DNA from: Tessaracoccus timonensis
Lineage (GTDB): Bacteria; Actinomycetota; Actinomycetes; Propionibacteriales; Propionibacteriaceae
Direction: 5' to 3'
DNA length: 64,000 bases
Assembly (NCBI RefSeq): GCF_900343145.1
Contig: NZ_LT996886.1
Coordinates: 2,542,001 to 2,606,000, forward strand
Positions within the stretch are counted from its first letter, which is position 1. The number at the start of each line of letters is the position of its first letter. The notes beneath the pieces were generated by a model. The model was given only the letters and a program-made list of their open reading frames with translations. It searched no databases and had not been told where the DNA came from. Shown here piece after piece: positions 39,609-56,958 of the stretch. The position numbers were made by a program, and so were the translations under genes.

Positions 39609-41062
39609 ATGGCTCTTCCTATTCCCGCTCCCGCCTCCGCCGACATCGGCGTCACCGGCATGGGTGTGATGGGCTCGAACCTCGCCCGCAACCTTGCCCG
39701 CAATGGCTACAAGGTGGCCATCCACAACCGCAGCAGCGCCAAGACCGAAGAGGTCTACACCGAGCACGGCAGTGAGGGCGAGTTCATCCCGTCGGAGAAC
39801 ATGGAGGACTTCGTCGGCTCGCTGGCCCGTCCCCGCGTCGCCATCATCATGGTCAAGGCCGGCGCCCCCACCGACGCCGTCATCGAGGAACTCGCCTCCC
39901 GCATGGAGGAGGGCGACATCATCGTCGACTGCGGCAACTCGCTCTTCACCGACACCCGTCGTCGCGAGGCGGCCCTCAAGGAGCGCGGCCTGCACTTCGT
40001 CGGCACCGGCGTCTCCGGCGGCGAGGAGGGCGCCCTCTGGGGCCCCTCGATCATGCCCGGCGGCTCCCCTGAGTCCTACGACCGCCTCGGCCCCATGTTC
40101 GAGAAGATCTCCGCGCACGTCGACGGCGAGCCCTGCTGCACCTACATCGGCGCCGACGGTGCCGGCCACTTCGTGAAGATGGTCCACAACGGCATCGAGT
40201 ACGCCGACATGCAGGTCATCGGCGAGGCCTACGACCTGCTGCGCCGCTCGCTCGGCCTGACCCCGGCCGAGATCGCCGACATCTTCGCCGAGTGGGACAA
40301 GGGTGAGCTCGACTCCTACCTCATGGAGGTCTCCGTCGAGGTCCTCCGCCAGGTGGACGCCAAGACCGACAAGCCGCTCGTCGACGTCATCGTCGACGCC
40401 GCCGCCCAGAAGGGCACCGGCGCCTGGATCGTCCAGACCGCCCTCGACCTCGGCGTCCCGGTGACCGGCATCGGCGAGGCGACGTTCGCCCGCGGCCTCT
40501 CCTCCTCCCCGCCCAGCGCGCAGCCGCACAGGGCTTCGCCGGCGAGGCCAAGGAGTGGAACGTCGAGGACCGCGAGGCGTTCATCGAGGACGTCCGCAAG
40601 GCCCTCTACGCCTCCAAGCTCGTCGCGTACTCGCAGGGCTTCAACGAGATCCAGGCCGCGGCCGAGGCCTACGGCTGGGACATCAACCTCGGCGCGCTCG
40701 CCCGCATCTGGCGCGGCGGCTGCATCATCCGTGCGCAGTTCCTCAACGAGATCACCCGCGCCTACGACGCCGACGCCAAGCTGCCGCTGCTGATCGGCGA
40801 CTCGTACTTCTACGAGCGCATCGTCGACGCCCTGCCGTCCTGGCGCCGCGTCGTCTCCGAGGCCACCCTGCACGGCGTCCCGGTGCCGGTGTTCTCCTCG
40901 TCGCTGTCGTACTACGACGGCGTCCGCTCCGAGCGTCTGCCCGCCGCCCTCATCCAGGGCCAGCGCGACTTCTTCGGCGCCCACACCTACCAGCGCACCG
41001 ACGCCGAGGGCGCCTTCCACACCATGTGGGCGGAAGACGGCCGCGCCGAAGTCCAGTGGTGA
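39609..41062 (+). pseudogene. gnd: 6-phosphogluconate dehydrogenase, interrupted by a one-base deletion
   Basis: Gnd oxidatively decarboxylates 6-phosphogluconate to ribulose-5-phosphate. The ATG at 39609 has AAGGA upstream. NADP loop GMGVMGSNLARN, VDCGNSLFTDT, GTGVSGGEEGAL and the catalytic GHFVKMVHNGIEYADMQ are intact. At 40511 a base is missing: adding one G restores SSSPAQRAAAQGFAGEAKEW and the frame then runs to a TGA at 41060-41062 (VQW end), giving about 484 residues, normal for the long form. As written, the frame goes wrong and stops at 40793. A sequencing error is quite possible. It leads the gnd-pfkB-larA group. Confidence 0.88.
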
Positions 41063-41083
41063 GCTGAGAGGAGCCGAACCGAC

Positions 41084-42157
41084 ATGCAGTTGCACGAAGA
41101 CGCACAGTGGGCGCTCGTCACGCCGACGTCCATGGGCGTGCGGATCACGCCCGAGAACCGCCAGCCGGTGCACTACTCGGACCACTTCCTGATGCAGGCC
41201 ACCTCGGCCGAGTCGAACGTCGCCTCGGTGGCGTCGCACCTCGGCCTGCCGGTGAAGGTGCTCACGAACTTCGTCGAGGGCTCGCCGATCTCGGCGTTCA
41301 TCAAGGCGAACCTCCGTGCGCGGGGCATGACCTACGAGGGTCCCGACGTGCCGCAGGGCGACGCCTGGGGCTACCGCCACCAGTTCAACATCGCCGACTC
41401 CGGCTACGGTGGCCGCGGCCCCCGCGTGTGGAACGACCGCGCCGGCGAGGTCGGCCGGACCCTGAAGGGGGAGGACTTCGACCTCGACAAGCTGTTCGGC
41501 GACGAGGGCGTGAAGATCCTGCACCTGTCCGGCCTGATCGCCGCCCTGTCCCCCGAGACGTCGAAGTTCTGCGTCGAGGTGGCCCGCAAGGCCAAGGAGC
41601 ACGGCACGCGGATCAGCTTCGACCTCAACTACCGCGCCACCTTCTGGAAGGGCCGCGAGGAGGAGCTGTCCGCCGCGTTCCGCGAGATCGCGAGCCTCTG
41701 CGACGTGCTGTACGGCAACGAGGAGGACTTCCAGCTCTGTCTGGGAATCCAGGGCCCCGAGGCCGGCGGCAAGGACATCGCCGAGGAGATCGAGTCGTTC
41801 AAGCAGATGATCGGCCGCATCCAGGAGCAGTACCCGGACGCGCAGTACATCGGCACCTCGCTGCGTGAGGTTGTCTCGGCCAACCAGCACAAGTGGGGCA
41901 TGATCCTGTGGGGCGAGGGCGAGTTCAACGTCGCCGAGCTCCGCGACATCGACGTCATCGACCGCATCGGCGGCGGCGACGGCTCCATCGGCGGCGTGCT
42001 GTACGGCATCCTCAAGGGCTGGGCGCCCGAGAAGTGCATGCAGTTCGGCTGGGCCACCGGCGCGCTGGCGGCCACCAGCATCTACGACTACGGCGCACCG
42101 GCCGACGAGGACCAGGTCTGGTCCATCTGGTCGGGCAACGCCCGCGTCAAGCGCTGA
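41084..42157 (+). CDS. PfkB-family sugar/sugar-acid kinase
   Basis: The ATG at 41084 follows GAGAGGAG. The 357-residue ribokinase-fold protein has ESNVASVASHLGLPVKVLT near the N-terminus, ISFDLNYRATFW as seen in 2-keto-3-deoxygluconate kinases, LYGNEEDFQLCLG, and a catalytic loop RIGGGDGSIGG that keeps the base Asp of the usual GAGDAF motif but varies around it. Automatic annotation would call it a KDG kinase. Between gnd and a LarA-like epimerase, a role in making 6-phosphogluconate from gluconate fits better; this is inference, as PfkB gluconokinases are not well known to me. Confidence 0.82.
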   Translation: MQLHEDAQWALVTPTSMGVRITPENRQPVHYSDHFLMQATSAESNVASVASHLGLPVKVLTNFVEGSPISAFIKANLRARGMTYEGPDVPQGDAWGYRHQFNIADSGYGGRGPRVWNDRAGEVGRTLKGEDFDLDKLFGDEGVKILHLSGLIAALSPETSKFCVEVARKAKEHGTRISFDLNYRATFWKGREEELSAAFREIASLCDVLYGNEEDFQLCLGIQGPEAGGKDIAEEIESFKQMIGRIQEQYPDAQYIGTSLREVVSANQHKWGMILWGEGEFNVAELRDIDVIDRIGGGDGSIGGVLYGILKGWAPEKCMQFGWATGALAATSIYDYGAPADEDQVWSIWSGNARVKR

Positions 42158-42233
42158 CGAATCGCGACGGACGGCGTCGGTTCCCCCGGGAGCCGGCGCC
42201 GTTCGTCGTGCCCACCCCCGGTGCCGCCACGTT

Positions 42234-42293
42234 CGCCAGCGTTTCCTATGTGTGCCTGCGATGCATCGCAGGCACACATAGGAAACGCTGGCG
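42234..42293. repeat. perfect 60-bp palindrome between pfkB and larA
   Basis: Bases 42234-42263 are the exact reverse complement of 42264-42293, with ATGCAT at the centre and no loop. I checked all 30 pairs; the next outer pair does not match. It lies in the 213-base gap before larA. A cruciform, a strong mRNA hairpin or a mobile palindromic repeat are all possible. It resembles neither the LacI-type motif nor a normal terminator. Confidence 0.92.
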
Positions 42294-42370
42294 GCTCGGC
42301 CCGGACGGCACCTTTTGCCAACTTGGGTCCGGCGAGGGCCGGGCGCGCGGCCCTGTGGTAGGTATGGCTC

Positions 42371-43678
42371 ATGACCAGCCTTTACCCCGGAATCGACGAG
42401 GCCGCCCGCATCGGCGGGCCCGATCAGGTCCTCACCCACGACCAGATCCGCGCGTTCGTCCTCGAGCAGCTGCGCGCCTACGACTTCGACGGGAAGCGCG
42501 TGACGTTCGTCGTTCCCGACGGAACCCGTCACGCCCCGGTCGACGTGGTGGCGAAGATCGTCCACGAGGCGCTGGGCGACCGCCCGGCCGACGTGCGCGT
42601 CGTGATCGCCCTGGGCACCCACGACTACATGAACGACGCCGCCATCGGGAAGCTCATGGGTTGCGAGCCCGGCCGCTTCGAGGAGACCTACCCCGGCTGG
42701 GAGATCCACAACCACGACTGGCGCAACGAGGAGACGTTCGCCAACCTCGGCACCATCCCGGCGCCCCGCATCGGCGAGCTCACCGGCGGCCGCCTGACGG
42801 ACCGGGACATGACCGTGCTGGTCAACAAGATGGTGGTCGACACGGACATCTCGCTCATCCTCGGCCCGGTGCTGCCGCACGAGGTCGTCGGGATCTCCGG
42901 CGGCAACAAGTACTTCTTCCCCGGCCTCTCCGGCCACGACGTGATCGACATGTCGCACTGGGTGGGCGCGCTCATCACGAGCTTCGAGATGATCGGCAGC
43001 ATCGGCATCACCCCTGTGCGGCAGATGATCGACGCGGCGGCCGAGCTGATCCCGTCGACGAAGCTGCTGCTCGGCATGATCGTGAAGCCGGGCAGCGACG
43101 ACCTGCAGTTCATGGCGTTCGGCGACTCGCGCGCCGCGTGGGAGGCGTGCGCCGAGGTCTCCAGCCAGGTGCACGTGAAGTACGTGCCCAAGGCGTACAA
43201 GCGCGTCGTCTCGATCATCCCGGAGATGTACGAGGACATGTGGACCGGCGCCAAGGGCTTCTACAAACTCGAGCCGGTCGTCGCCGACGGCGGCGAGCTC
43301 ATCATCTACGCGCCGCACATCGAGCAGGTCTCCGTCATGCACCCGGGCATCGAGGAGATCGGCTACCACAACCGCCAGTACTTCGTCGGGCAGTGGGAGC
43401 GGTTCAAGGACCACCCCTGGGGCGAGCTCGCGCACTCGACGCACCTCCGCGGCCTGGGCGACTACGACCCCGGGACGGGTGTCGAGACCAACCGCGTCAC
43501 CGTGACGCTCGCGACGGGGATCCCGCGCGACGTCGTCGAGCGCATCAGCCTGAACTACCTCGATCCCCGCGACGTGGACCTCGCGGCCTTCGAGGCGGAC
43601 CCGGACACGCTCGTCGTCCCGCACGCCGGCGAGCTGCTGCACCGCACCGAGGCGCAGCGCGGGAAGCTCCCCGCCTGA
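42371..43678 (+). CDS. larA: LarA-family nickel-pincer-nucleotide racemase/epimerase
   Basis: LarA enzymes racemise 2-hydroxyacids by hydride transfer at a nickel-pincer cofactor. The 435-residue protein has the family signatures: VVPDGTRH near residue 50, IALGTHDYM with a His, and LPHEVVGISGGNKYFFPGLSGHDVIDMSHW, which contains the cofactor-binding Lys and nickel-region His residues. LarE, LarB and LarC, which make the cofactor, are encoded at 50072-53035 in the same island, so the enzyme should be functional. Context (uxuB, gnd, a kinase) suggests an aldonate such as mannonate/gluconate rather than lactate; ldh also lies 6 kb away, so lactate racemase remains possible. Confidence 0.88.
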   Translation: MTSLYPGIDEAARIGGPDQVLTHDQIRAFVLEQLRAYDFDGKRVTFVVPDGTRHAPVDVVAKIVHEALGDRPADVRVVIALGTHDYMNDAAIGKLMGCEPGRFEETYPGWEIHNHDWRNEETFANLGTIPAPRIGELTGGRLTDRDMTVLVNKMVVDTDISLILGPVLPHEVVGISGGNKYFFPGLSGHDVIDMSHWVGALITSFEMIGSIGITPVRQMIDAAAELIPSTKLLLGMIVKPGSDDLQFMAFGDSRAAWEACAEVSSQVHVKYVPKAYKRVVSIIPEMYEDMWTGAKGFYKLEPVVADGGELIIYAPHIEQVSVMHPGIEEIGYHNRQYFVGQWERFKDHPWGELAHSTHLRGLGDYDPGTGVETNRVTVTLATGIPRDVVERISLNYLDPRDVDLAAFEADPDTLVVPHAGELLHRTEAQRGKLPA

Positions 43679-43688
43679 GGGGACAACG

Positions 43689-43725
43689 AACGAGGGCCTC
43701 CACCGATCCGGTGGAGGCCCTCGTT
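43689..43725. terminator. bidirectional terminator between larA and the GPH transporter
   Basis: A 17-bp perfect stem (43689-43705 with 43709-43725) has a 3-base loop, an AA start and a TT end. It separates convergent genes and can serve both. Confidence 0.85.
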
Positions 43726-43736
43726 GGTTGGGGTGG

Positions 43737-45203
43737 CTACCTGGCGTCCTGGCCGGGGACGAGGCCGGCGGCGACGCGGCGCTCCTCGAGGATGCGCACG
43801 TTCTCGGCGACCTTGTTCTTCTTCAGCGGGTAGAGGAAGAGCAGGGCCAGTGCGACGAGGATCGCGCCGATGCCGGGGAGCAGGTTGGCGAGCATGTAGA
43901 TGCCCTCCTGGACCGACTCCGCCTGCGCCTCGCCCGCCGCCGCCACCGCCGCGTCGAAGCCGACAGCGCCGAGCGCGAAGCCGATGAGGCCACCGGCGAG
44001 GGCCTGCCCCAGCTTGCGGGCCCACGAGTAGACGGCGTAGACGGTGCCATCGTCGCGGGAGCCGGTGCGGACCTCCTGGTAGTCGATGACGTCGGTGATG
44101 AGCGCCCAGATCAGGAAGTTGAAGACCTGGATGGCGAGCATCGTGATGGCGTAGAAGACGATCCAGACGGCCGGGTTCTCGATCTTGAGGAAGTACGCCG
44201 CGAGCAGGGTCGCCCCGCCGACGAACATCGCGACGATGCCGACCTCGGCCTTGCCGAAGCGCTTGGCGAGCCAGGGCGAGATGAAGATCAGGACCAGCGA
44301 GGGGGCGATGCCTGCGATCGAGGCCGGCGACTGCCAAGTGCCGTCACCGAAGTAGTTCAGGAACAGGTAGCCGAGGATGCCGCCCAGGAACATGAAGGTC
44401 AGCAGCAGGATCAGCGCCGCGGCGATGAGGCCGAGCAGTGCCTTGTTGGTGAACACGGTGCTGAGCATCTTGCCGATGCTCTGGCCGCCCTCGGCCTTGC
44501 CCTTGACGGACGACGGGACACGCTCCTCGACGAGGGCGTAGCAGACCGCGTAGCAGACGACTGCGAGGATCGAGCAGACGACGGCGGCCATCGTCATGCG
44601 CGGGCCGGACAGCACCGAGACGCCGTCGGTGTTCGCCGTGTAGACGACCAGCGGCATGATCGCCATGATCGCCAGGTTGGCGAGGGTCGCGCCGGTGGAC
44701 CGGAACACGGACAGCTGGGCGCGGTCGTCGGGGTTGCCGGAGACCACGGAGGCCATGGACCCGTAGGGGATGTTGATGGCGGTGTAGCAGATCGAGCCCC
44801 ACAGCAGGTAGGTGGCGACCATCCAGGTCACCTTCAGCGCGTACGAGTCGAAGTCGGCGACGAAGGACATGTACATGAGAGCCGAGGCCACGGCCACCGG
44901 GATGGCGATGTACTTGATCCAGCGCTTGAACTTGTACTGCCCCTCCTTCACGGGGAGACGGTCGACGATGATGCCCATGCCGACGTCGGTGAAGCCGTCG
45001 AGCACGCGGGCGCCGATCAGGAGGAGGCCCACGTGGGCCGGGTTGATCCCCACCACGTTGGTGAAGAACAGCATGAAGAATGCGGACTGGAGGATGAAGG
45101 TGAAGTCGTTGCCGAAATCACCGAACATGTAGCCCAGTTTGTCGCGCATGCCGAAGGGGCGAGTGCTGAGCTTCCCCTTGTATGCGCTGAGTGTGGTGGT
45201 CAT
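43737..45203 (-). CDS. GPH-family glycoside/pentoside/hexuronide cation symporter
   Basis: The 488-residue protein has about twelve hydrophobic segments and the MelB-like pattern: GYMFGDFGNDFTFILQSAFFMLFFTNVVG at the N-terminus, ARVLDGFTDVGMGIIVDR (the conserved D-x-x-D/R loop) and YQEVRTGSRDDGTVYAVYSWARKLGQALAGGLIG. Members import galactosides, pentosides or glucuronides with Na+ or H+. In a locus with uxaC and uxuB, a glucuronide or hexuronate is the likely substrate. It is divergent from a Gfo/Idh gene across a region with candidate operators. Confidence 0.9.
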   Translation of the reverse strand: MTTTLSAYKGKLSTRPFGMRDKLGYMFGDFGNDFTFILQSAFFMLFFTNVVGINPAHVGLLLIGARVLDGFTDVGMGIIVDRLPVKEGQYKFKRWIKYIAIPVAVASALMYMSFVADFDSYALKVTWMVATYLLWGSICYTAINIPYGSMASVVSGNPDDRAQLSVFRSTGATLANLAIMAIMPLVVYTANTDGVSVLSGPRMTMAAVVCSILAVVCYAVCYALVEERVPSSVKGKAEGGQSIGKMLSTVFTNKALLGLIAAALILLLTFMFLGGILGYLFLNYFGDGTWQSPASIAGIAPSLVLIFISPWLAKRFGKAEVGIVAMFVGGATLLAAYFLKIENPAVWIVFYAITMLAIQVFNFLIWALITDVIDYQEVRTGSRDDGTVYAVYSWARKLGQALAGGLIGFALGAVGFDAAVAAAGEAQAESVQEGIYMLANLLPGIGAILVALALLFLYPLKKNKVAENVRILEERRVAAGLVPGQDAR

Positions 45204-45308
45204 CGCGACTCCGTTCCGGGCAGCTGCTGTGCCGCCCTGCTATGGACTTCGTTGGCTGCGACACCGGCAGCGACTTGTCAATATTCTGCATATCCGCTCG
45301 CGGGATTC

Positions 45309-45363: not shown

Positions 45364-45429
45364 CCCCCTGCGTGGCACTCGCCCAGCATGCGAGCCTGAG
45401 ACCTACAGTCGATTGGAGTGGTGAACGCC

Positions 45430-46446
45430 GTGCAGACGTATCGAGCGGCCGTCGTGGGTTGCGGAGACATATCGGTGGTCCACTTGGCCGCCCTGCGGAA
45501 GCTGGAGCTGGCGGAACTGGTCGCGGTGTGCGACGTGACCCCCGCCGCCCGTGAAGCCGCGGCAACCGCGCACGGCGTGCCCGGGTACGCCTCTGTGGAG
45601 GAACTCCTCGCGAACGAGCAGGTCGACGTCGTCCACGTCTGCACCCCGCACGACCAGCATGCACCCGTCATCATCGCCTGCCTCGAGGCAGGCGTGAACG
45701 TCCTCACCGAGAAGCCGCTGGCGGAGTCGCTCGCATCCGCGGACCGGGTCATCGCCGCAGAGGCGGCGAGCACGGCGAAGCTCGGCGTCTGCTTCCAGAC
45801 CCGCTACAACGCCCCGGTGCGCATCGCGCGCGAGCGGTTGCGGTCCGGCGAGTTCGGCCCGATCCGCGGCGGGGCCGGCACGGTCATGTGGACCCGCACC
45901 CCCGAGTACTACGCGAGCAAGCCGTGGCGCGGCACTTGGGCGGGCAGCGGCGGCGGCCTCCTCATGAACCAGGCCATCCACACCGTCGACCTCCTCCAGT
46001 GGCTCATCGGCCCGGTGGAGCGCGTCGACGGGGCCGCCCACACCCGGGCGCTCGCCGGGAGCATCGAGGTCGAGGACACCGCGGACATGCTCCTCACCCA
46101 CGCCGGCGGCGCGACGAGCATCTTCTACGCGACCAACGCCCACACCATCAACGACTCCGTCCTGGTGGAGGTCGTCACCGACACCGCCGTCCTCCGCATC
46201 GGCGAGGACCTGACCATCGCCCACACCGACGGGCGGACCGAGCGGATCACCCCGGCCCCCGCCTCCAGCGACGGTCGCGACTACTGGGGAACCTCCCACG
46301 AGGACCTCATCCGCGACTTCTACAGCCAGCTCGGCAGCGACGAGGGCTTCTGGATCAGCGCCGACGAGGCGCGCAGGAGCCTGGAGATCATCGCCGACGT
46401 CTACGACCAGAGTTACCCCGAGAGAACCCAACCGAAGGAGCAGTAA
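45430..46446 (+). CDS. Gfo/Idh/MocA-family NAD(P)-dependent oxidoreductase
   Basis: Three in-frame GTG codons (45418, 45421, 45430) follow GGAG at 45415-45418. The one at 45430 (VQTYRAAVVGCGDIS) is placed best. The ~338-residue protein has the Rossmann loop AVVGCGDISVVHL, the EKP catalytic-Lys motif in NVLTEKPLAES, and GGGLLMNQAIHTVDLLQWLIG with the conserved His. It oxidises or reduces a cyclic or linear sugar; the exact sugar is unknown. Its stop overlaps the next gene's start (TAATG), so they form an operon. Confidence 0.85.
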   Translation: MQTYRAAVVGCGDISVVHLAALRKLELAELVAVCDVTPAAREAAATAHGVPGYASVEELLANEQVDVVHVCTPHDQHAPVIIACLEAGVNVLTEKPLAESLASADRVIAAEAASTAKLGVCFQTRYNAPVRIARERLRSGEFGPIRGGAGTVMWTRTPEYYASKPWRGTWAGSGGGLLMNQAIHTVDLLQWLIGPVERVDGAAHTRALAGSIEVEDTADMLLTHAGGATSIFYATNAHTINDSVLVEVVTDTAVLRIGEDLTIAHTDGRTERITPAPASSDGRDYWGTSHEDLIRDFYSQLGSDEGFWISADEARRSLEIIADVYDQSYPERTQPKEQ

Positions 46447-47300
46447 TGGCGAGAATCGGCCTGCAGGTCATGACGGTGCGCGAGGAGTTCACCCGCCTCG
46501 GCACCTACGAAGCGCTCAAGCAGATCGCGGAGATCGGCTTCAGGAACCTCGAGCTGTCGCAGGTCTCCATGGCTCCCGAAAACGTCGCCGAGATGGAGCG
46601 CGCGAAGGGTGACCTGGGGCTCGAGTTCTCTGCGATCTCGGCACCGCTCGACGCCCCGGAGGGTGCCGACTCCCTCAGCGGCACGATGAACAAGATCATC
46701 TCCGACGCCAAGCGCCTGGGCGCCCCGTTCGTCCGGATCGGCATGATGGCACCCGAGGCCATGCGCTCCCGCGAGACCATCGTCGACTACTCGAAGCGCG
46801 CCGACGAGGCAGCGAAGCGGCTGGCGGACGAGGGCATCACGCTCTGCTACCACAACCACCACGTCGAGTTCGCCCGCATCGACGGGCAGTTCATCCTCGA
46901 CCTGATCCGCGAGACGGCGCCCAACCTGCGCTACGAGATCGACCTCCACTGGGTGCACCGCGGCGGGCTCGAGCCCATCCGCTTCCTGAAGCAGTACGAC
47001 GGCGTCGTGGACCTCGTCCACCTCAAGGACTACCGCATCGGGCTGCTCGGCGACGAGGCGTTCGAGGCCTACGACAAGAAGGACATCGGTGCGTTCATGC
47101 AGCACTTCCTCGGCGTGGTCCAGTTCGCCGAGGTGGGCGAGGGCAACCTCGACTTCCCGGCGATGATCGCCGCGGCCGAGGAGGTCGGCGCGAAGCACCT
47201 CTACGTGGAGCAGGACGCGACGTACGGCCGCGCCCCGTTCGAGGCGCTGCAGCTCTCCCACGACAACCTCGTGAAGATGGGCTTCCAGGACAAGTTCTGA
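46446..47300 (+). CDS. TIM-barrel sugar (phosphate) isomerase/epimerase
   Basis: The 284-residue protein has the AP-endonuclease-2/IolE-type barrel: GLQVMTVREEF at the N-terminus, IGFRNLELSQ, VRIGMMAPEA, ITLCYHNHHVEF, YEIDLHWVHRGG and HLYVEQDATYG. Glu, Asp and His residues at the strand ends supply a probable divalent-metal site. Such enzymes isomerise or epimerise keto-sugars or inosose derivatives. It is coupled to the Gfo/Idh dehydrogenase, a common oxidise-then-isomerise pairing. Confidence 0.86.
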   Translation: MARIGLQVMTVREEFTRLGTYEALKQIAEIGFRNLELSQVSMAPENVAEMERAKGDLGLEFSAISAPLDAPEGADSLSGTMNKIISDAKRLGAPFVRIGMMAPEAMRSRETIVDYSKRADEAAKRLADEGITLCYHNHHVEFARIDGQFILDLIRETAPNLRYEIDLHWVHRGGLEPIRFLKQYDGVVDLVHLKDYRIGLLGDEAFEAYDKKDIGAFMQHFLGVVQFAEVGEGNLDFPAMIAAAEEVGAKHLYVEQDATYGRAPFEALQLSHDNLVKMGFQDKF

Positions 47301-47323
47301 TCCGGACGCAGTTCCGAACGCGA

Positions 47324-47358
47324 AAGGAGGGGGCGACCGCCACGGTCGCCCCCTCCTT
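47324..47358. terminator. bidirectional terminator between isomerase and Gfo/Idh gene
   Basis: A 16-bp perfect stem (47324-47339 with 47343-47358) has a CCA loop, begins AA and ends TT. It lies between the convergent gene ends at 47300 and 47376. Confidence 0.85.
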
Positions 47359-47375
47359 CGTCGTTCAGTTGCCGA

Positions 47376-48545: not shown

Positions 48546-48595
48546 GTTCCGGACCTCCTCGTTGATGGGTTTCCGTCGAATCTATGCCGAATTGC

Positions 48596-48657
48596 CGCCC
48601 TGGGCCTGCCCTTGCCGCAAGTTGCACGCCCTGGGCCTGCCCTTGCCGCAAGTTGCA
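48596..48657. repeat. exact 31-bp tandem duplication containing candidate operators
   Basis: Bases 48596-48626 are repeated exactly at 48627-48657. Each copy ends in TTGCC-GCAAG-TTGCA (48612-48626 and 48643-48657) and contains the inverted pair CTTGC-C-GCAAG. It lies between two minus-strand Gfo/Idh genes, 51 bases upstream of the start of the second. Duplication of a regulator site is the simplest reading. Confidence 0.8.
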
Positions 48658-48680
48658 GAGGGAGGCCGGGCGGCGGGTCT

Positions 48681-49745
48681 TCAGGCCTGGGCGGTGAGGA
48701 CGCGCGCGCGCTCCTGCGCCTTCAGCGCCAGCTCCACCGACTTGAAGATGTGCTCCTGCGTCATGGCCTCCTCGGTGCGGTTCAGGCAGTCGAGGACCAT
48801 CTCGCCGAAGAAGGGGTAGCCCACCTTGCCGTTGGCGTTGAAGCGGTGCTCCCCGTCGCCGTTGACCATGTAGACGTTGTCCGGGCCGTCGTCGGTGGTG
48901 ACGTTGACGTACTTGCGGAGCTCGATGTAGCCCTCGGTGCCGAGCAGGAAGGACCGCCCGTCACCCCAGACCGACAGGCCGTCGGGGGTGAACCAGTCGA
49001 CGCGGAAGTAGCCCGTCGCGCCGTTGTCGCAGACCAGCGTGGCGTTGCCGAAGTCGTCGAGTTCGGGGAACTGCGGGTGGTTGTAGTTCGCGATCGCCGA
49101 GTCGGTGATCTCGGCGTCCTTCGCGCCCGTGAAGTACAGGATCTGCTCGCAGTTGTGGCTGCCGATGTCGGCGAGGATGCCGCCGTACTGCTCCTTGTCG
49201 AAGAACCAGTCCGGGCGCGAGTCCGCGTTCAGCCGGTGGGGGCCGAGGTTCAGCACCTGGATGACGCGGCCGATGGCGCCGTCGCGGACGAGCTGGCCCG
49301 CCATGACGGAGGCCTCGACGTGCAGTCGCTCCGAGTAGTAGACGTTGAACTTCTGCCCCGTGCGCTCCACAGCCTCGCGGGCGCGCGCCAGCTGGTCGAG
49401 CGTGGTCATCGGGGTCTTGTCGGTGAAGTAGTCCTTGCCGGCCTCCATCACCCGGATGCCCAGGTCCGCCCGGAGGTTGGGGATGTCCGCCGCGGCGACG
49501 AGCTTCACCTCGTCGTCGGCGAGCAGCTCCTCCTCGCTGGACGCGACGTGCACGTCGGGGAACATGGCATTGAACGCGGCCACCATCTCGGGGTCGTCGT
49601 CGTAGACCGACTTCAGGGTGGCGCCGGCGCCGAGGAGACCGTTGACCATCCCGAAGATGTGGCCGTGGTGCAGCCCCGTGACGGCGAAGGGGAAGTCGCC
49701 GGGCTCGACCACCGGGTTCGGAATCGGGTCCGGTGCGTAGTTCAT
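48681..49745 (-). CDS. Gfo/Idh/MocA-family oxidoreductase (variant nucleotide loop)
   Basis: The ATG at 49745-49743 (MNYAPDPIPNPVVEPG) with AAGGA upstream gives 354 residues. The N-terminus reads FAVTGLHHGHIFGMVNGLLGAG, a His-rich loop instead of the standard GxGxxG. The rest is typical: DYFTDKTPMTTLDQLA carries the catalytic Lys and GGILADIGSHNCEQILYFTG the His. It is the most divergent of the three Gfo/Idh genes here. It is divergent from larE, across a 326-base regulatory region. Confidence 0.84.
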   Translation of the reverse strand: MNYAPDPIPNPVVEPGDFPFAVTGLHHGHIFGMVNGLLGAGATLKSVYDDDPEMVAAFNAMFPDVHVASSEEELLADDEVKLVAAADIPNLRADLGIRVMEAGKDYFTDKTPMTTLDQLARAREAVERTGQKFNVYYSERLHVEASVMAGQLVRDGAIGRVIQVLNLGPHRLNADSRPDWFFDKEQYGGILADIGSHNCEQILYFTGAKDAEITDSAIANYNHPQFPELDDFGNATLVCDNGATGYFRVDWFTPDGLSVWGDGRSFLLGTEGYIELRKYVNVTTDDGPDNVYMVNGDGEHRFNANGKVGYPFFGEMVLDCLNRTEEAMTQEHIFKSVELALKAQERARVLTAQA

Positions 49746-50071: not shown

Positions 50072-50953
50072 ATGACCGCCACCGACCTCTTCATCCAGCT
50101 GCGGCCCGACCTGCAGCGGATCGCCGACGGCGTTGCCCGCGACATCCGCGAGGCGGCCGGGCCGCGACCCCGCGTGGGCGTCGCCTACTCCGGCGGCGTC
50201 GACTCCACCGTGCTCGCGGCACTGACCGCCCGGGCCGTCGGCACCGACCGCACCACGCTGCTGATGGCGGTGTCCCCGTCGCTGGCCAAGCGCGAGCGGC
50301 GCCTCGCCACCCGCCAGGCGGACCAGCTCGGCCTGCCGCTCGTGGAGATCGAGACCCACGAGCTCGACAACCCGAAGTACGCCGCAAACCCCGTCGACCG
50401 CTGCTACTTCTGCAAGGACGAGCTCTTCACCCGGCTCGACGACGACCTCGTGGGCCGGCTGCGGCTGGACGCCGTCGCCTACGGCGAGAATCTCGACGAC
50501 GCCGCCCGCCCCGACCGGCCCGGCGCCCGCGCCGCCCGCGAGCACCGCGTCCTGCACCCCCTCGCCTCGGCGGGCGCGACCAAGGCCGACGTGCGCGCCA
50601 TCGCCCGCGCGCTCGGGCTGAGCAGCGCCGACAAGCCCGCCGCCCCGTGCCTCGCCAGCCGCGTCCCCCACGGCGAGCCCGTCACCGCGGAGAAGCTGGA
50701 GCAGGTGGACGCCGCGGAGGACGCCGTCCTCGCCGCCGGCTTCTCGGACTGCCGCGTCCGACACCACGGCGACATCGCCCGCATCGAGGTGCCCTCGTCG
50801 GAGTTCGGGCTCATCGCCGACGACGACCGTCGCGAGCGGTTGCTGGCCGCGGTCCGCGCCGCCGGTTTCAAGCACGCGGTCGTGGACCTCGCCGGCATCC
50901 AGTCCGGCGCCTTCACGCTGCAGCTGCTCACCGCGAGGCCGGGTGCGGCATGA
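50072..50953 (+). CDS. larE: LarE, sulfur-transferase for nickel-pincer cofactor synthesis
   Basis: LarE adds sulfur to the pyridinium dicarboxylate precursor of the nickel-pincer nucleotide. The 293-residue protein has the PP-loop VAYSGGVDSTVLAAL near residue 38, RCYFCKDELF, and KPAAPCLASRVPHG near residue 190. The Cys there aligns with the sacrificial sulfur-donor cysteine of characterised LarE. The ATG at 50072 gives MTATDLFIQLRPDL; a longer upstream frame lacks homology. Its stop overlaps larB by 4 bases. Confidence 0.93.
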   Translation: MTATDLFIQLRPDLQRIADGVARDIREAAGPRPRVGVAYSGGVDSTVLAALTARAVGTDRTTLLMAVSPSLAKRERRLATRQADQLGLPLVEIETHELDNPKYAANPVDRCYFCKDELFTRLDDDLVGRLRLDAVAYGENLDDAARPDRPGARAAREHRVLHPLASAGATKADVRAIARALGLSSADKPAAPCLASRVPHGEPVTAEKLEQVDAAEDAVLAAGFSDCRVRHHGDIARIEVPSSEFGLIADDDRRERLLAAVRAAGFKHAVVDLAGIQSGAFTLQLLTARPGAA

Positions 50954-51624
50954 GCGTCGCCACCCTCGACTTCGACCGCTACGCCCGCCGCGGTTACCCC
51001 GAGGCGGTGCTCTGCCAGGGCAAGTCCGTCGCCCAGGTCGTCGAGATCACGCGGGCCTGGCGCGAGCGCGCCGCCGAGCAGGACCTCGGCACGGTGCTCT
51101 TCACCCGCGTGAGCCCGGAGCAGGCGGAGGTCGTCCTCGCCGAGCTGCCGGACGCCCACCACGACGAGACCTCGTCGCTGATCGCCTGGCCTGCCGAGCC
51201 GCCGCGCCCGACCGGCGGCCGCGTCGTCGTCTGTGCCGGCACGGCGGACCTGCGCGTCGCCCGCGAGGCCACCCTCACCGCCCGCTACCTCGGGCGCGAG
51301 GTCACCGAGGTCGTCGACGTCGGCGTGGCGGGACTCGACCGCATCCTCGCCAAGCGCGACGTGCTCCGCTCGGCCGACGTGGTCGTCGCCGTCGCCGGCA
51401 TGGACGCGGCCCTCGTGCCCGTCGTCGCCGGCCTCGTCGCCTGCCCCGTCGTCGCGGTGCCCACCTCCGTCGGCTACGGCGTCGCCTTCGAGGGCGTCTC
51501 CGCGCTGCTCTCCATGCTCAACTCCTGCTCCCCCGGCGTCGGTGTGGTCAACATCGACAACGGCTACGGCGCAGGCCACCTCGCCGCCCAGATCGCCGCC
51601 CCGAAGGACCGACCCCATGCATGA
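50950..51624 (+). CDS. larB: LarB, carboxylase for nickel-pincer cofactor synthesis
   Basis: LarB carboxylates and hydrolyses nicotinic acid adenine dinucleotide as the first step of cofactor synthesis. The 224-residue protein has an N-terminal helical segment and a PurE-like C-terminal domain with the family signatures VVCAGTADLRVAREA, AVAGMDAALVPVVAGLV, VAVPTSVGYGVAFEG and SMLNSCSPGVGVVNIDNGYG. The ATG lies in an ATGA overlap with larE and the stop overlaps larC by 8 bases, so the three are translated together. Confidence 0.93.
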   Translation: MSVATLDFDRYARRGYPEAVLCQGKSVAQVVEITRAWRERAAEQDLGTVLFTRVSPEQAEVVLAELPDAHHDETSSLIAWPAEPPRPTGGRVVVCAGTADLRVAREATLTARYLGREVTEVVDVGVAGLDRILAKRDVLRSADVVVAVAGMDAALVPVVAGLVACPVVAVPTSVGYGVAFEGVSALLSMLNSCSPGVGVVNIDNGYGAGHLAAQIAAPKDRPHA

Positions 51625-53035
51625 CAGCCACGCCGGCGGCCACCACCACCATCACCCGAAGCCCGCGGCCGAGGCGATCACCACCGCCGACGGCGACATC
51701 GTCGCGCCGGGCACCGTGATCCCCGCCGGGAAGCTGTGGGTGGACGAGGGCGCGCCCCGCCGCAGGCTCTGGATCGACGCCAGCCAGGGCGCGAGCGGCG
51801 ACATGCTGCTCGCCGCGCTCCTGGACGCGGGAGCGGACGCGGCCAGCGTCGCCGCGGTGCTGGAGCTCGTGGCACCCGGCAAGCTGCACCTGCAGTGGCG
51901 ACGGGTGGAGCGGGGCCCGTTCCAGGCGATGAAGGTGGATGTCATCGCCGACGAGGTCGACCCGCCCGCCCGGCACCTGTCGGACATCGAGGAGATGCTG
52001 TCGGTCGACGGGGTGCCCGACGAGACCCGCGCGCTCGCGCTCGACGCGTTCCGTCGCCTCGCCCGCGCCGAGGCCCACGTGCACGGCATGGAGGTCGAGG
52101 ACGTCCACTTCCACGAGGTCGGTGCCCTCGACTCGATCGGCGACATGGTGGGCGTCGCGGAGGCGATCCGCACCCTCGGCATCGGCCGCGCCACCTGCTC
52201 GGTCGTCGCCGTCGGCACCGGCTCGGTGCGCACCCAGCACGGCCTCCTCACCGTCCCGCCGCCGGCGGTGCTCGAACTCGCCCGCGGCTGGCAGGTGGAG
52301 GCCGGCGGCCCGCCCGAGGCCGGCGAGCTCTGCACCCCCACGAGGCTCGCCCTGATCCGGGCGATCTGCGACGCCGTCGAACCGCTGCCGAAGATGACGC
52401 TGCGCAACATCGGCGTCGGCGCCGGTTCCAAGGTCCGCGCCGACCGCGCCGGCGTGCTTCGCGCCACCGTCGGCGACGAGGTCGTCGACAGGCCACGGCC
52501 GTCCGCCGCCGAGGGCCACGCCCACGACGACCGCCCGGCGAGCACCATCCACGAGATCTCCGCCAACGTCGACGACCTCGATCCGCGCGTCTGGCCGGCC
52601 GTCATCGACCGGCTCCTCGACGCCGGCGCCGTCGACGCCTGGCTGGTCCCCATCATCATGAAGAAGGGGCGGCCCGCCCACACCATCACGGCGATCGCCC
52701 CGGCGGACTGCGTCGACTACGTCGCCGACGCGCTCGTCACCCACACGTCGACGATCGGCGTGCGCATCACCGCCCCCATGCACCGGCGCGTCCTCGAGCG
52801 GATGTGGATCCCCGTGCAGGTCGAGGGGTTCACCGTGCGCATCAAGGTGTCCGGCGAGGGCTCGGGGCGCACTATCCAGCAGGCCACCGCCGAATTCATC
52901 GACGTGGAACAACTCGCCGAACACCTGGGCGTCGCGCAGCGCGTGGCGCTCACCCAGGCACAGTCCGTCGCCTGGGCCGCCGGGCTCTACCCCGGCGCGC
53001 CCTGGCCGGAGGAGGAAGGGGGCGTACGGAGATGA
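51617..53035 (+). CDS. larC: LarC, nickel insertion protein with His-rich N-terminus
   Basis: LarC is the CTP-dependent nickel inserter of the pincer cofactor. The 472-residue protein is one continuous reading frame covering both halves, which in Lactobacillus are joined by a ribosomal frameshift. The N-terminus MHDSHAGGHHHHHPKP is a natural metal-binding stretch. The body starts near residue 45 (RRLWIDASQGASGDMLLAALLD) and holds HVHGMEVEDVHFHEVGALDSIGD, NIGVGAGS, ISANVDDLDPRVWPAVIDRLL and IIMKKGRPAHTI. Another His-rich spot, EGHAHDD, marks the linker. It overlaps larB by 8 bases and lacI by 4. Confidence 0.93.
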   Translation: MHDSHAGGHHHHHPKPAAEAITTADGDIVAPGTVIPAGKLWVDEGAPRRRLWIDASQGASGDMLLAALLDAGADAASVAAVLELVAPGKLHLQWRRVERGPFQAMKVDVIADEVDPPARHLSDIEEMLSVDGVPDETRALALDAFRRLARAEAHVHGMEVEDVHFHEVGALDSIGDMVGVAEAIRTLGIGRATCSVVAVGTGSVRTQHGLLTVPPPAVLELARGWQVEAGGPPEAGELCTPTRLALIRAICDAVEPLPKMTLRNIGVGAGSKVRADRAGVLRATVGDEVVDRPRPSAAEGHAHDDRPASTIHEISANVDDLDPRVWPAVIDRLLDAGAVDAWLVPIIMKKGRPAHTITAIAPADCVDYVADALVTHTSTIGVRITAPMHRRVLERMWIPVQVEGFTVRIKVSGEGSGRTIQQATAEFIDVEQLAEHLGVAQRVALTQAQSVAWAAGLYPGAPWPEEEGGVRR

Positions 53036-54090
53036 CGGACAACGAGGTTCCGGCCGAGACCCCGGTACGCAGGAAGAAAGTCACCATCTACGACATCGCC
53101 CGCGTCGCCGGGGTGGCGCCGTCGACGGTGTCCCGCACCTTCGCGCGCCCCGGCCGCGTGAACGCCGACACCGCGGAGCGCATCCGCGCCACGGCGCAGG
53201 AGCTCGGCTACCGCGCCAAACCGTTGACGCAGAACAAGGCCGGCGTCGCGACGAACACGCTCGGCTTCGTGGTCGCCGACGTCGCCAACCCCGTCTTCGC
53301 GCACATCATGAAGGGCTTCCAGAACGAGGCCGCCGAGCACGGCTACTCGGTCCTGCTGATCGACACCCGCGAGGACGCGAAGATCGAGCGCGAGAGCATC
53401 AGCCGGCTCGCGCCGCTCGTCGACGGGCTCGTCCTGGGCGCGTCCCGGCTGAGCGACTCCGCGATCACCCAGATCGTGAAGGTCCGGCCGGTCGCCTCCG
53501 TCAACCGCATCATCGCGGGCCTGCCCTCCATCGTCGCCGACACCCCGCGCGGGATGCGCCGCCTCGTCGAGCACCTAGCCTCGCTAGGACACACGCGCTT
53601 CACCTACATCGCCGGTCCCGCCGCGTCCTGGGCCGACGGGGTCCGCTGGCGCGCGGTGTCGGAGGCGTGCCACGAGCTCAACCTCGTCGTGCGCCGCATC
53701 GGTCCCTACTCCCCGTCGCTCGACGGGGGGGTCGCCGCGGCGGCCGCCTGGATGGAGCACCCCACGTCGGCGGTGATCGGCTACAACGACATGATGGCCA
53801 TCGGCTTCATGAAGTCCGTGCAGCGCTCAGGCCTCCGCGTGCCGCAAGACGTGTCGGTCGCCGGCGTGGACAACTCGATCCCGTCGGTGCTCACCACGCC
53901 GACGCTCACGAGCGTCGCCCCGTCGACGAGCCAGATCGGCATGCGCGCGGCGCGTGCCCTCATCACCCAGCTGCGACATCGCTCCGCCCCGAGCGCGGAG
54001 ACGATCGTCGTCCCCATGGATTTGCACCTGAGGGACAGCGTCGGACCGGCCCGTCCGACGACACACCTACCCCGCCAGAAGATGGAGTGA
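53032..54090 (+). CDS. LacI-family transcriptional regulator
   Basis: The 352-residue protein has the LacI helix-turn-helix and hinge (VTIYDIARVAGVAPSTVSRTFARPGRVNADTAERI, residues ~17-51). A periplasmic-binding-like effector domain follows, with LGFVVADVANPVFAHIMKGFQ and AVIGYNDMMAIGFMK. It is encoded inside the operon (ATGA overlap with larC, 6 bases before uxaC), so it probably represses this operon and itself, with release by a uronate or aldonate. The GGCAA/TTGCC repeats in the island promoters are candidate operators. Confidence 0.92.
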   Translation: MTDNEVPAETPVRRKKVTIYDIARVAGVAPSTVSRTFARPGRVNADTAERIRATAQELGYRAKPLTQNKAGVATNTLGFVVADVANPVFAHIMKGFQNEAAEHGYSVLLIDTREDAKIERESISRLAPLVDGLVLGASRLSDSAITQIVKVRPVASVNRIIAGLPSIVADTPRGMRRLVEHLASLGHTRFTYIAGPAASWADGVRWRAVSEACHELNLVVRRIGPYSPSLDGGVAAAAAWMEHPTSAVIGYNDMMAIGFMKSVQRSGLRVPQDVSVAGVDNSIPSVLTTPTLTSVAPSTSQIGMRAARALITQLRHRSAPSAETIVVPMDLHLRDSVGPARPTTHLPRQKME

Positions 54091-54096
54091 TAGCCA

Positions 54097-55515
54097 ATGT
54101 CCGAACCGCTCACCCTGCACCCCGACCGGCTCTTCCCGGCCGACCCGAAGACGCGGGAGATCGCGCGCGAGCTCTACGCCCGGGTCGCCGACCTGCCGAT
54201 CATCTCCCCCCACGGCCACGTGCCGGTGCAGTGGCTGGCCGACGACACGCCGTTCACCGACCCGACGACGCTGCTGCTGACCCCCGACCACTACACCAAC
54301 CGGCTCCTGCACAGCGTCGCCGGCGTGGAGCTGGAGGACCTCGGCGTGCCGGTCGGCTCGCCCATGAGCCCCGAGAAGTCGCGTGAGGCGTTCCGCATCT
54401 TCTGCTCCAACTGGAAGGTGTTCCGCGGCACCCAGGTGCAGTTCTGGTTCGAGTCGCAGTTCGTCGACGTGTTCGGCATCGACGTGCGGCCCTCCGCCGA
54501 GACGGCCGACCGGATCTACGACCAGATCCTCGAGCGCCTGGGCACCGACGAGTACAAGCCCCGCGCGCTGTACAAGCGGTTCAACATCGACTTCCTCGCC
54601 ACCACCGACGACCCCTGCGACGACCTCGCCGGCCATCAGCAGCTCGTCGACGATCCCACCTGGGACAGCCGGGTGGTGCCGACCTTCCGCCCCGACAAGT
54701 ACCTCGAGCCCGCCCGCGCCGGCTGGGTGGAGCTGACGAAGCAGCTCGGCGGGGTCGCCGGCGTCGAGATCGGCAGCTACGCCGACCACCTAGAGGCCAT
54801 GCGCATCCGCCGCCGCTACTTCGTCGACCACGGCGCCGTGTCCTCGGACCACTCGCACCGCGACGCCCGCTGCGCCCGCCTCGACGACGCCGAGGCCGAG
54901 CGCCTCTTCGCCCGCGCGCTGGCCGGCGAGATCACCGTCGACGAGGGCGACGCGCTCCGCGCCCACATGGTCAACGACCAGGCCCGCCTGGCCGTCGAGG
55001 ACGGGCTCGTCATGACCCTGCACCCGGCCGTCTACCGCAACCACGACACCGCCACCTTCGAGCGCTACGGCGCCGACGTCGGCGGCGACGTGCCACTCCC
55101 GGTGGAGTTTGCGAGCGCGCTGCAGCCGATCCTCTCCGAGTACGGCAACGCCGACGGCTTCCAGCTCGTCGTCTTCACCATGGACGAGACGGTCTACTCC
55201 CGCGAGCTCGCGCCGCTGGCCGGGTGGTACCGCGGCATGTACATCGGCGCCCCCTGGTGGTTCATCGACGAGAACGACGCCATGATGCGCTTCCGCCGCG
55301 CCACCACCGGCTACGGCACGCTGCACAAGGGCTCCGGCTTCATCGACGACACCCGCGCGTTCTGTTCCATCCCGGCGCGCCACGACGCCGCCCGCCGCGT
55401 CGACTCGGCGTACCTCGCCGGGCTCGTCGCCGAGCACCGCCTGAGCCTCGACGAGGCGGCCGAGACCGCCGTCGAGCTCGTCACCACCCAGCCCAAGCGC
55501 GCCTTCAAGCTCTGA
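54097..55515 (+). CDS. uxaC: glucuronate isomerase
   Basis: UxaC isomerises D-glucuronate to D-fructuronate and D-galacturonate to D-tagaturonate in the cytoplasm. The 472-residue protein is the usual length and belongs to the amidohydrolase-like superfamily. Signatures are LPIISPHGHVPVQWLADD with metal-ligand His residues near residue 37, LATTDDPCDDLAGH, VPTFRPDK and the C-terminal RYHDAARR-like ARHDAARRVDSAYLAGLV. It follows lacI by 6 bases. Confidence 0.93.
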   Translation: MSEPLTLHPDRLFPADPKTREIARELYARVADLPIISPHGHVPVQWLADDTPFTDPTTLLLTPDHYTNRLLHSVAGVELEDLGVPVGSPMSPEKSREAFRIFCSNWKVFRGTQVQFWFESQFVDVFGIDVRPSAETADRIYDQILERLGTDEYKPRALYKRFNIDFLATTDDPCDDLAGHQQLVDDPTWDSRVVPTFRPDKYLEPARAGWVELTKQLGGVAGVEIGSYADHLEAMRIRRRYFVDHGAVSSDHSHRDARCARLDDAEAERLFARALAGEITVDEGDALRAHMVNDQARLAVEDGLVMTLHPAVYRNHDTATFERYGADVGGDVPLPVEFASALQPILSEYGNADGFQLVVFTMDETVYSRELAPLAGWYRGMYIGAPWWFIDENDAMMRFRRATTGYGTLHKGSGFIDDTRAFCSIPARHDAARRVDSAYLAGLVAEHRLSLDEAAETAVELVTTQPKRAFKL

Positions 55516-55557
55516 GACCACGAACCCCACTTCCCGGTCCGTTCAGAAAGGAACACC

Positions 55558-56958
55558 ATGACCGCCGTACCCGCCCTCACGCGCAGCCAGTTCGGACGCC
55601 CGGCCGCCCCCGTGCGCATCGTCCACCTGGGCCTGGGCAACTTCACCCGCGCCCACCAGGCCTGGTACACCGAGCACGCGGCCGACCGCGACGACTGGGG
55701 CATCGCGGCCTTCACCGGCCGCCGCCCCACGATGGCCGAGCTGCTCACCCCCCAGGACGGGCTGTACACCCTGGTCACCAAGGGTGCCGAGGGCGACTCC
55801 TACGAGGTCATCTCGTCGGTCTCCCACGTCCACCCGGCCTCAGACTTCGCAGCGCTCGTGCGCTACTTCGCGTCGCCGGAGCTCGCCGTCGTGACCTCCA
55901 CCGTCACCGAGGCGGGCTACTACCGCGCCGCCGATGGGTCGCTGGACGTGGGCGACGCGGCCGTCGCGGCCGACCTGACCGCCGTCCGCGAGTTGCTCGA
56001 GGACGGCGCCCCGTCGGTCGACGACATCGCGGCCCTCGAGGTCATCACCTCCCCGGTCCGCGTCATGGCCGGCCTCCTGGCCCGACGTGCGGCCGGCGTC
56101 GGCGCGCTGACGATCCTCCCCTGCGACAACATCCCGGACAACGGCGAGGCGTTCGGCCGAGTCGTCCGCGACGCCGCAGCCGCGACCGACTCGTCGCTGG
56201 TGGACTGGATGGGCGGGAACGTCGCCTGGGCCACGTCGATGGTGGACCGCATCACCCCCGCCACGACCGACACCGAGATCGCCGACGTCGAGGCCGCGCA
56301 GGGCTACCACGACGCCGCGCCGGTGCCGACCGAGCCGTTCAGCGAGTGGGTCATCAGCGGCGAGTTCCCCGCCGGGCGCCCCGACTGGGAGTCCGCCGGC
56401 GTGCAGATCGTCGACGAGGTGGAGCCCTACGAGCAGCGCAAGCTGTGGATGCTCAACGGCTCGCACTCGCTGATGGCCTACGCCGGCCCCATCCTCGGCG
56501 TCGAGACCGTCTCCGAGGGCATGGCCAACGCGCGGGTCCGCGAGCTCGTGCAGACCTGGTGGCAGGAGGCCGGCCCCGGCCTCAGCGTCCCGTGGGAGGA
56601 GTACGCCGCCGCGCTCGTGGAGCGCTACGAGAACCCGAACATCCGCCACCTGCTCGCGCAGATCGCGGCCGACGGCTCGCAGAAGATCGCCGTGCGCATC
56701 GTCCCGACGCTCCGCCGCTTCCGCGGCCGGGGCGAGATGCCGTCGGCGGCCGTGACCGCCGTCGCCGCCTGGCTGCTGCACCTCCGCGGCCACGGCGCGC
56801 CCGTCAAGGACGCCGCCAAGGACAAGGTGGAGGAGCTCGTCGGCGGCACCCTCGAGGAGGACGCGGCCAACGTGCTGGGCTTCGTGGCCCCCGACCTCGC
56901 CGGCGACACCGAGCTGGTGCAGGCCATCGCCGCCGCGGCGGAGCAGCTGCTCGGCTGA
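55558..56958 (+). CDS. uxuB: mannitol dehydrogenase-family fructuronate reductase
   Basis: The ATG at 55558 follows GAAAGGAAC. The 466-residue protein has the long-chain polyol dehydrogenase fold: [19 protein letters not shown] (nucleotide loop), [25 protein letters not shown] and the catalytic Lys region [19 protein letters not shown]. The family includes mannitol, arabinitol and altronate dehydrogenases; next to uxaC, reduction of fructuronate to mannonate is the likely role. No mannonate dehydratase gene accompanies it. A strong terminator follows. Confidence 0.87.

Follow-up and report, generated by a model that had tools for sequence, protein, structure and literature searches.

A LarA-family epimerase module in Tessaracoccus timonensis and related actinobacteria: a predicted route from glucuronate to the pentose phosphate pathway

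How does a bacterium that has the isomerase and the reductase for turning glucuronate into mannonate go on from there when no mannonate dehydratase can be found? The question is raised by an island of sugar-acid genes in a stretch of 64,000 nucleotides (hereafter, the window; C1:2542001-2606000) of the genome of Tessaracoccus timonensis, which is assembled as one contig (2.759 Mb) and is 99.97% complete. The island encodes glucuronate isomerase (UxaC), a UxuB-type reductase, a LarA-family epimerase together with the cofactor genes larE, larB, and larC, a PfkB-family kinase, 6-phosphogluconate dehydrogenase (Gnd), and a symporter of the GPH family. An earlier reading of the window (the original prediction) had proposed that these genes form a new, nickel-dependent shortcut from glucuronate to the pentose phosphate pathway.

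In the route that we favor, the GPH symporter would import a glucuronide or uronate, UxaC would form D-fructuronate, and UxuB would convert it to D-mannonate. LarA, equipped with the nickel-pincer cofactor that LarB, LarE, and LarC produce, would then invert C2 of D-mannonate to give D-gluconate, which the PfkB kinase would turn into 6-phosphogluconate and Gnd would decarboxylate to ribulose 5-phosphate. Such a route would stand in for UxuA or ManD, KdgK, and Eda. We put the probability of this passage through gluconate, with the epimerase acting first, at roughly two in three, and a LarA-kinase-Gnd route with epimerase and kinase in either order is, in our judgment, highly probable. We infer every substrate and direction, the position of the kinase, and the dependence on nickel from what is observed, namely, gene content and arrangement, the lack of mannonate dehydratases, the conserved residues, and the recurrent linkage. 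The route originally predicted is well backed by the recurrence of its gene context in many genomes and by the absence of UxuA and ManD, while what LarA and the kinase act on, and which of the two comes first, keep the status of predictions.

The epimerase carries much of the argument. It belongs to the LarA superfamily by its Lar_N domain (Table 1), and its nearest named relative is the LarA of T. oleiagri, which is 97% identical. The catalytic residues D50, H84, H170, and K295 and the cofactor residues R53, K180, and H196 are invariant in all 66 LarA sequences compared, and so are two marks of GntE enzymes, the E171-V172 loop after the catalytic histidine and the tryptophan W291 of helix 11. 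The residue roles follow Desguin et al. (PMC7583248), where an E-V or E-S loop and the helix-11 tryptophan mark groups 18-20. The best solved relative, 4nar, is GntE2 (LarAH20) of Thermotoga maritima, for which the same text gives a kcat of 197 per second and a KM of 17 mM on free mannonate (PMC7583248). Measurements have shown mannonate/gluconate epimerase activity in the LarA homologs from T. maritima and Corynebacterium glutamicum (PMC7583248) and in LarAH15 of Phytophthora nicotianae (PMC11770544). With GntE1 of C. glutamicum, GntE2, and LarAH15, the window LarA shares the superfamily, the catalytic and cofactor residues, and the E-V/S loop; the likeness to GntE1 and LarAH15 is taken from published descriptions and not from a comparison of their sequences with that of the window.

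The second line of evidence is what the genome lacks. A profile search of the whole genome found no UxuA over the cut-off; the sub-threshold match fits the iolE (myo-inosose dehydratase) model, at 175 bits under a cut-off of 290. Nor is there a ManD among the three enolase-superfamily matches of the genome: the best of them fits L-Ala-D/L-Glu epimerase at 169.5 bits and reaches only 31.1 bits against the 550 set for ManD, another is a MenC over its cut-off, and the third looks by eye like an enolase. A hidden mannonate dehydratase was therefore rejected. The original prediction, made from the window, had seen no such enzyme and no classical gluconokinase, and for both the statement now extends to the whole genome: a hidden GntK was likewise rejected, since no protein matches the GntK-type model TIGR01313 (positive in 5 of 14 control genomes), and a PfkB kinase is found in place of a T. 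maritima-type gluconokinase, FGGY gluconokinases not having been searched for in this genome. UxaC and UxuB are common to the canonical UxuA-KdgK-Eda branch and to T. timonensis, which has LarA, a kinase, and Gnd beside them, whereas UxuA was not found.

The island is also not alone. At about C1:871-891 kb lies a second set comprising gnd, pfkB, larA, larE, larB, larC, lacI, uxaC, and uxuB in the same order, with other genes interspersed and an ldh-like gene at its head. Its products are diverged from those of the window (identities of 81% for PfkB, 84% for LarA, 82% for UxaC, and 75% for UxuB), and its gnd is a single frame of 508 aa; the set was read from two stretches, L041 and L042, within C1:866000-900000. 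T. oleiagri seems to have just one copy of the module, its genome giving one LarA match. The window island is therefore one of two paralogous glucuronide-utilization modules in this genome; the single island first described was right in its gene content, but this diverged second set had been missed. Interspersed in the second set are a mannosylglycerate-hydrolase-like gene (86.9 bits, under the cut-off) and, by eye, a Fic-like gene.

For the co-occurrence of LarA, UxaC, and UxuA, two samples were surveyed, 197 genomes of the family and 296 of the class, a few of the latter also belonging to the family of the window (such as G000, G013, and G018); all co-occurrence counts are raw genome counts that ignore shared ancestry. 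In the family, LarA was counted at a threshold of our own of at least 44% identity, fragments included, so that 11 of the 85 genomes with a match at 0.001 were left out as weak and distant; a strong UxuA is one of at least 250 bits, again our own threshold, and in the class, LarA was counted at E values up to 1e-60. The family sample holds UxaC in 104 genomes, LarA in 74, and UxuA over the cut-off in 47, among which 34 are strong. LarA occurs in 68 of the 104 genomes with UxaC against 6 of the 93 without it, and among the UxaC genomes a strong UxuA is found in 8/68 with LarA against 19/36 without LarA (13/68 against 23/36 when divergent UxuA is included). In the class, 15 genomes have LarA, 46 have UxaC, and 12 have both; UxuA exceeds the cut-off in 11 of the 46 UxaC genomes and never occurs together with LarA. 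The control genome of C. glutamicum, the source of GntE1, is positive for UxaC and negative for UxuA.

Gene neighborhoods point the same way. Of the 74 genomes with LarA, 52 contributed stretches, alongside 19 UxuA-only genomes, 13 with neither, and 4 with divergent UxuA; 9 of the 52 LarA genomes and 1 UxuA-only genome contributed two stretches each. The 22 LarA genomes outside this count include six that are the window genome or are among the sources of a set of 15 loci of LarA relatives. These stretches contain gnd in 27/52 LarA genomes, 0/19 UxuA-only, 5/13 with neither, and 0/4 with divergent UxuA, and in the 52 LarA genomes, larA lies in the same stretch as uxaC in 40, as uxuB in 36, and as gnd in 25. 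Gene order varies; in one arrangement, for example, larA points away from uxaC-uxuB and is followed by lacI and gnd. Ten of the 15 loci of LarA relatives hold gnd, and in eight, gnd, pfkB, and larA follow one upon the other, uninterrupted by any further gene searched for, with up to 781 nt (in L010) ahead of larA; L003 and L004 are short contigs. In Embleya sp. NBC_00888, uxaC, larB, larE, uxuB, larA, larC, and lacI are found together. In the wider survey that the original prediction had called for, the linkage of larA, uxuB, and gnd recurs, and UxuA is mostly excluded from the UxaC genomes that have LarA.

The kinase of the module varies. Among the 52 LarA genomes, a PfkB kinase was recognized in seven and a gntK-like FGGY kinase in six, never both, counts that omit FGGY matches below 50% and PfkB matches below 60% identity; each type can directly follow uxuB. 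Scans of five of these six FGGY proteins gave their highest scores, 329-371 bits, with the model for gluconokinase, whose cut-off of 648.55 they do not reach, and 260-284 bits with that for xylulokinase. A GH2 gene, found in six relatives' loci as a group of open reading frames (ORFs), is a beta-glucuronidase in the four that were scanned (818-858 bits over 544), which makes beta-glucuronides the likely input.

Two loci without UxuA and LarA should be mentioned here. In G124 (L106:6342-7649), a ManD of 682.8 bits over the cut-off of 550 lies beside uxuB and uxaC. In G174 (L107:8028-11974), a truncated GH3 gene directly abuts uxaC, so that the gnd/pfkB/larA/lar stretch of the relatives is gone, and uxuB is spread over several frames; judged from its sequence, this locus is a decayed module.

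More distant support comes from a plasmid of Saccharobesus litoralis (NZ_CP026605.1; L149:7491-9260), which encodes a fusion of a GntK-type gluconokinase with LarA, 589 amino acids long (gluconokinase 184.8 bits over 113.75; LarA group 18, 618.9 over 500), near larE, larB, tagaturonate epimerase, gnd, and uxaC. In Catenovulum adriaticum, gluconokinase and a group 18 LarA are separate neighbors. The LarA proteins of the two organisms are 27-28% identical to that of the window. As the 2020 study offered just a hypothesis for group 18 (PMC7583248), the fusion is independent support for the view that a hexonate-type LarA works with gluconokinase and Gnd.

Several observations weigh against the epimerase-first route and have to be considered together with the alternatives that they bring up. 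With 165.8 bits, the window LarA stays below the 500 that the hexonate-epimerase model NF052594 requires and is thus, by that model, no member of group 18. The native role of group 19 was left open by Desguin et al., and GntE1 of C. glutamicum (LarAH19) binds free mannonate poorly there, with a KM of 120 mM (PMC7583248). Such poor binding would be explained if phosphorylation came first, the PfkB protein being a mannonate 6-kinase and LarA a nickel-dependent 6-phospho-D-mannonate/6-phosphogluconate 2-epimerase, with Gnd acting next. Both of these activities have been measured in extracts of Lactobacillus suebicus, with no genes assigned (PMC6978723); were this order true, the island would supply the genes for two orphan activities. 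The adjacency of kinase and larA, and the Saccharobesus fusion, fit either order. However, GntE2, the best solved relative, acts on free mannonate with the constants given above, and the FGGY kinase able to fill the same slot resembles gluconokinases. We regard the kinase-first order as unlikely.

The window kinase also gives reason for doubt. Its best solved relative, 2afb (114.7 bits), is named a 2-keto-3-deoxygluconate (KDG) kinase, and hidden Markov model (HMM) matches likewise place it nearest to KDG kinases. Residues D118, R119, D180, N182, and R184 are invariant in 18 of 18 relatives and align with two stretches of 2afb, DR and DLNYR, whose roles in KDG kinase we assume to be the usual ones. 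A plasmid search with the window kinase as query gave no matches. In addition, one protein, at C1:1586 kb, exceeds the Pfam cut-off for the KDPG-aldolase family (Aldolase, 38.6 over 27.8), so that the absence of a KDPG aldolase, noted earlier for the island, is less clear for the whole genome. Taken together, these matches could mean that the kinase acts on KDG delivered by a dehydratase encoded elsewhere, with LarA merely interconverting aldonates and Gnd present incidentally. However, the aldolase-like protein reaches only 47.1 bits against the 156.05 required by the eda model, lies about 1 Mb away, and by eye misses the lysine motif that we take to be usual in such enzymes; the genome has no UxuA or ManD, edd and gluconate dehydratases of other families not having been searched for; and LarA loci repeatedly hold gnd, which is missing from the stretches of all 19 UxuA-only genomes. 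A KDG branch is therefore highly improbable here.

A different substrate for LarA is suggested by a locus of the Geodermatophilaceae (L014:4712-17084), in which a LarA 60% identical to that of the window lies beside a KDG-kinase-like PfkB protein and dehydratases of the galactarate/galactonate type, without gnd or uxaC. That LarA possibly has another substrate, and Desguin et al. suggested that the C. glutamicum group acts on a uronic or aldaric acid (PMC7583248). By extension, the window enzyme might act on lactate, an aldarate, or another hexonate, the proximity of uxaC and gnd reflecting a mixed sugar-acid island. An identity as lactate racemase was rejected because of the model score (57.9 against 460 bits) and the active-site letters, and the invariant GntE-type loop and tryptophan, together with the linkage to UxaC in both the family and class samples, argue against other acids as well. 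We consider this possibility quite doubtful.

The remaining difficulties for the glucuronate-gluconate route concern Gnd and the counts. The original prediction missed that gnd is not intact in the window: the copy matches 6-phosphogluconate dehydrogenase in both of its parts, but these are split between two frames near position 40500. They are 8 nt apart, against 9 nt in T. oleiagri (L002), that is, with one base fewer, and in all 10 gnd-bearing loci among the 15 (L002 and nine others), they are in one frame. The N-terminal part shares 98.3% and the C-terminal part 98.9% identity with L002, so the frameshift would be either a mutation of recent date or an error in the sequencing. With the second-set gnd in one frame, the genome keeps an unbroken set even if the window gnd is broken, in which case Gnd would be supplied by the second copy. 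The gene zwf is also present, so that Gnd serves its usual role too, and a missing zwf as proof that Gnd serves the glucuronate route alone was rejected. No gnd was seen in the stretches of 25 of the 52 LarA genomes, although some contigs are short (such as L092 and L100, about 5 kb), and its absence there says little; a recognized kinase is found in just 13 of the 52. In the family, the 8 of 68 UxaC genomes that hold a strong UxuA beside LarA are joined by 5 more with a divergent one, and 13/104 UxaC genomes of the family and 23/46 of the class have neither enzyme; LarA is thus one of several ways onward from mannonate. Finally, a tree of UxaC, with 76 rows (the window and 75 stretches hand-picked as holding most of uxaC), gave six independent pairs on well-supported branches. 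On average, gnd agrees with LarA in 2.0 of them and disagrees in 0.1, and UxuA is opposed to LarA in 1.8 and accompanies it in 0.1; the direction is that of the raw counts, but the independent pairs are too few, and the association is not significant (median sign-test p of 0.5 for both gnd and UxuA).

HMM scans bore out the coordinates and strands first given for gnd, the PfkB kinase, LarA, the GPH symporter, and larE-larB-larC-lacI-uxaC-uxuB (Table 1). Scores above curated NCBIfam cut-offs were obtained for UxaC, larE, larB, larC, and the symporter. The UxuB protein scores 251.5 with the fructuronate reductase model PRK15037 (under 603) and 268.4 with a D-arabinitol dehydrogenase model (under 600); neither it nor the kinase passes a single-function cut-off, so that their naming rests on context.

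Table 1. Features of the glucuronate island in the window, with the matches on which their names are based
Feature	Position	Strand	Evidence
gnd, N-terminal part, 6-phosphogluconate dehydrogenase residues 1-297	39609..40499	+	PRK09287 493.1 bits over 413 (open frame)
gnd, C-terminal part, other frame, last 184 residues	40508..41062	+	PF00393 223.9 bits, model 118-290; PRK09287 223.8 bits
PfkB-family sugar or sugar-acid kinase, predicted gluconate (or mannonate) kinase	41084..42157	+	PF00294 79 bits
Perfect 60-bp palindrome, no loop, between kinase gene and larA	42234..42293	.	repeat search
LarA-family nickel-pincer 2-epimerase, predicted D-mannonate/D-gluconate 2-epimerase	42371..43678	+	PF09861 73.3 bits over 23.3; 4nar 198.1 bits
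GPH-family symporter, glucuronide-type	43737..45203	-	TIGR00792 282.4 bits over 231.35; PRK09848 glucuronide transporter 202.5 under 528
Gfo/Idh/MocA oxidoreductase	45418..46446	+	PF01408 92.8 bits
Xylose-isomerase-like TIM barrel protein	46446..47300	+	PF01261 57.9 bits
Gfo/Idh/MocA oxidoreductase	47376..48545	-	PF01408 70.2 bits
Gfo/Idh/MocA oxidoreductase	48681..49745	-	PF22725 67.4 bits
larE, sulfur transferase of nickel-pincer cofactor synthesis	50072..50953	+	TIGR00268 264.9 bits over 150
larB	50950..51624	+	NF033503 261.9 bits over 175
larC, nickel insertion, larC1 and larC2 parts	51617..53035	+	TIGR00299 177.2 over 90; NF052512 109.3 over 50
LacI-family regulator	53032..54090	+	PF00356, PF13377 over cut-off
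uxaC, glucuronate isomerase	54097..55515	+	PRK02925 516.3 bits over 387
uxuB-type reductase, predicted fructuronate reductase	55558..56958	+	PF01232, PF08125 over cut-off

The genes gnd, kinase, and larA are consecutive, as first described, with 213 nt between kinase and larA. The palindrome in this gap has an imperfect counterpart in T. oleiagri (L002) and no run of T directly after it. What had been called one overlapping operon is nearly that: by their coordinates, larE/larB overlap by 4 nt, larB/larC by 8 nt, and larC/lacI by 4 nt, but gaps of 6 nt and 42 nt separate lacI from uxaC and uxaC from uxuB. The two gene groups of the island are separated by the three Gfo/Idh/MocA genes and the xylose-isomerase-like gene (45418-49745), and some relatives' loci hold similar genes. 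An operator search by palindrome comparison gave nothing convincing. A motif of GGCAA and TTGCC separated by 0-6 nt, with at most one mismatch, occurs in 17 of 28 chosen upstream regions of the window and relatives, including those upstream of positions 39609, 42371, 45203, and 50072 in the window, against a mean of 1.15 and a maximum of 4 regions in 60 plain letter shuffles. Since this inverted motif was found by eye, chosen after seeing the data, and is variable in spacing, it is a mere hint of shared LacI control and a possible candidate for the LacI operator.

The route itself is not new, and the original claim of a new shortcut was too strong: a LarA-type route was proposed for T. maritima by Rodionova et al. 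in 2012 (as cited in PMC6978723, PMC3750489, and PMC7583248), and the epimerase activity of homologs has been measured, as described above. The aldH-pelB-gnd-uxaRED-gntEK locus of T. maritima resembles the Tessaracoccus module in having an isomerase and a reductase leading to mannonate, a LarA-family GntE leading to gluconate, a kinase, and Gnd, and the T. maritima-type linkage of uxaC, uxuB, larA, and gnd is found in both sets of the T. timonensis genome. That locus is assigned to pectin and galacturonate, and the same organism has a kdgA-kdgK-uxuB-uxuA operon (PMC3750489). T. timonensis, by contrast, has no uxuA, has PfkB in place of gntK, and carries the lar cofactor genes in the operon, and the loci of some of its relatives differ further from that of T. 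maritima in their beta-glucuronidase. In L. suebicus, too, mannonate enters at 6-phosphogluconate and Gnd follows, and UxuA, KdgK, and KdgA were not detected; the differences are that phosphorylation comes first, no genes are assigned, the substrate is galacturonate, and the phosphoketolase pathway follows (PMC6978723). We found no description of the actinobacterial module in the literature searched, which left out most subscription papers. What appears to be new is this module without UxuA, its PfkB kinase, its spread within the family, and the gluconokinase-LarA fusion.

These observations suggest that a nickel-dependent bypass, and not the textbook branch through mannonate dehydratase, is a common glucuronate route in this actinobacterial family, in which LarA is present in about two-thirds of the sampled genomes with UxaC (68/104). 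If this is true, glucuronate would yield a pentose phosphate, and not pyruvate and triose phosphate. The route predicts a PfkB-family sugar-acid kinase at this step and nickel-dependent growth on glucuronate, and it makes the native substrate of the actinobacterial LarA enzymes directly testable.

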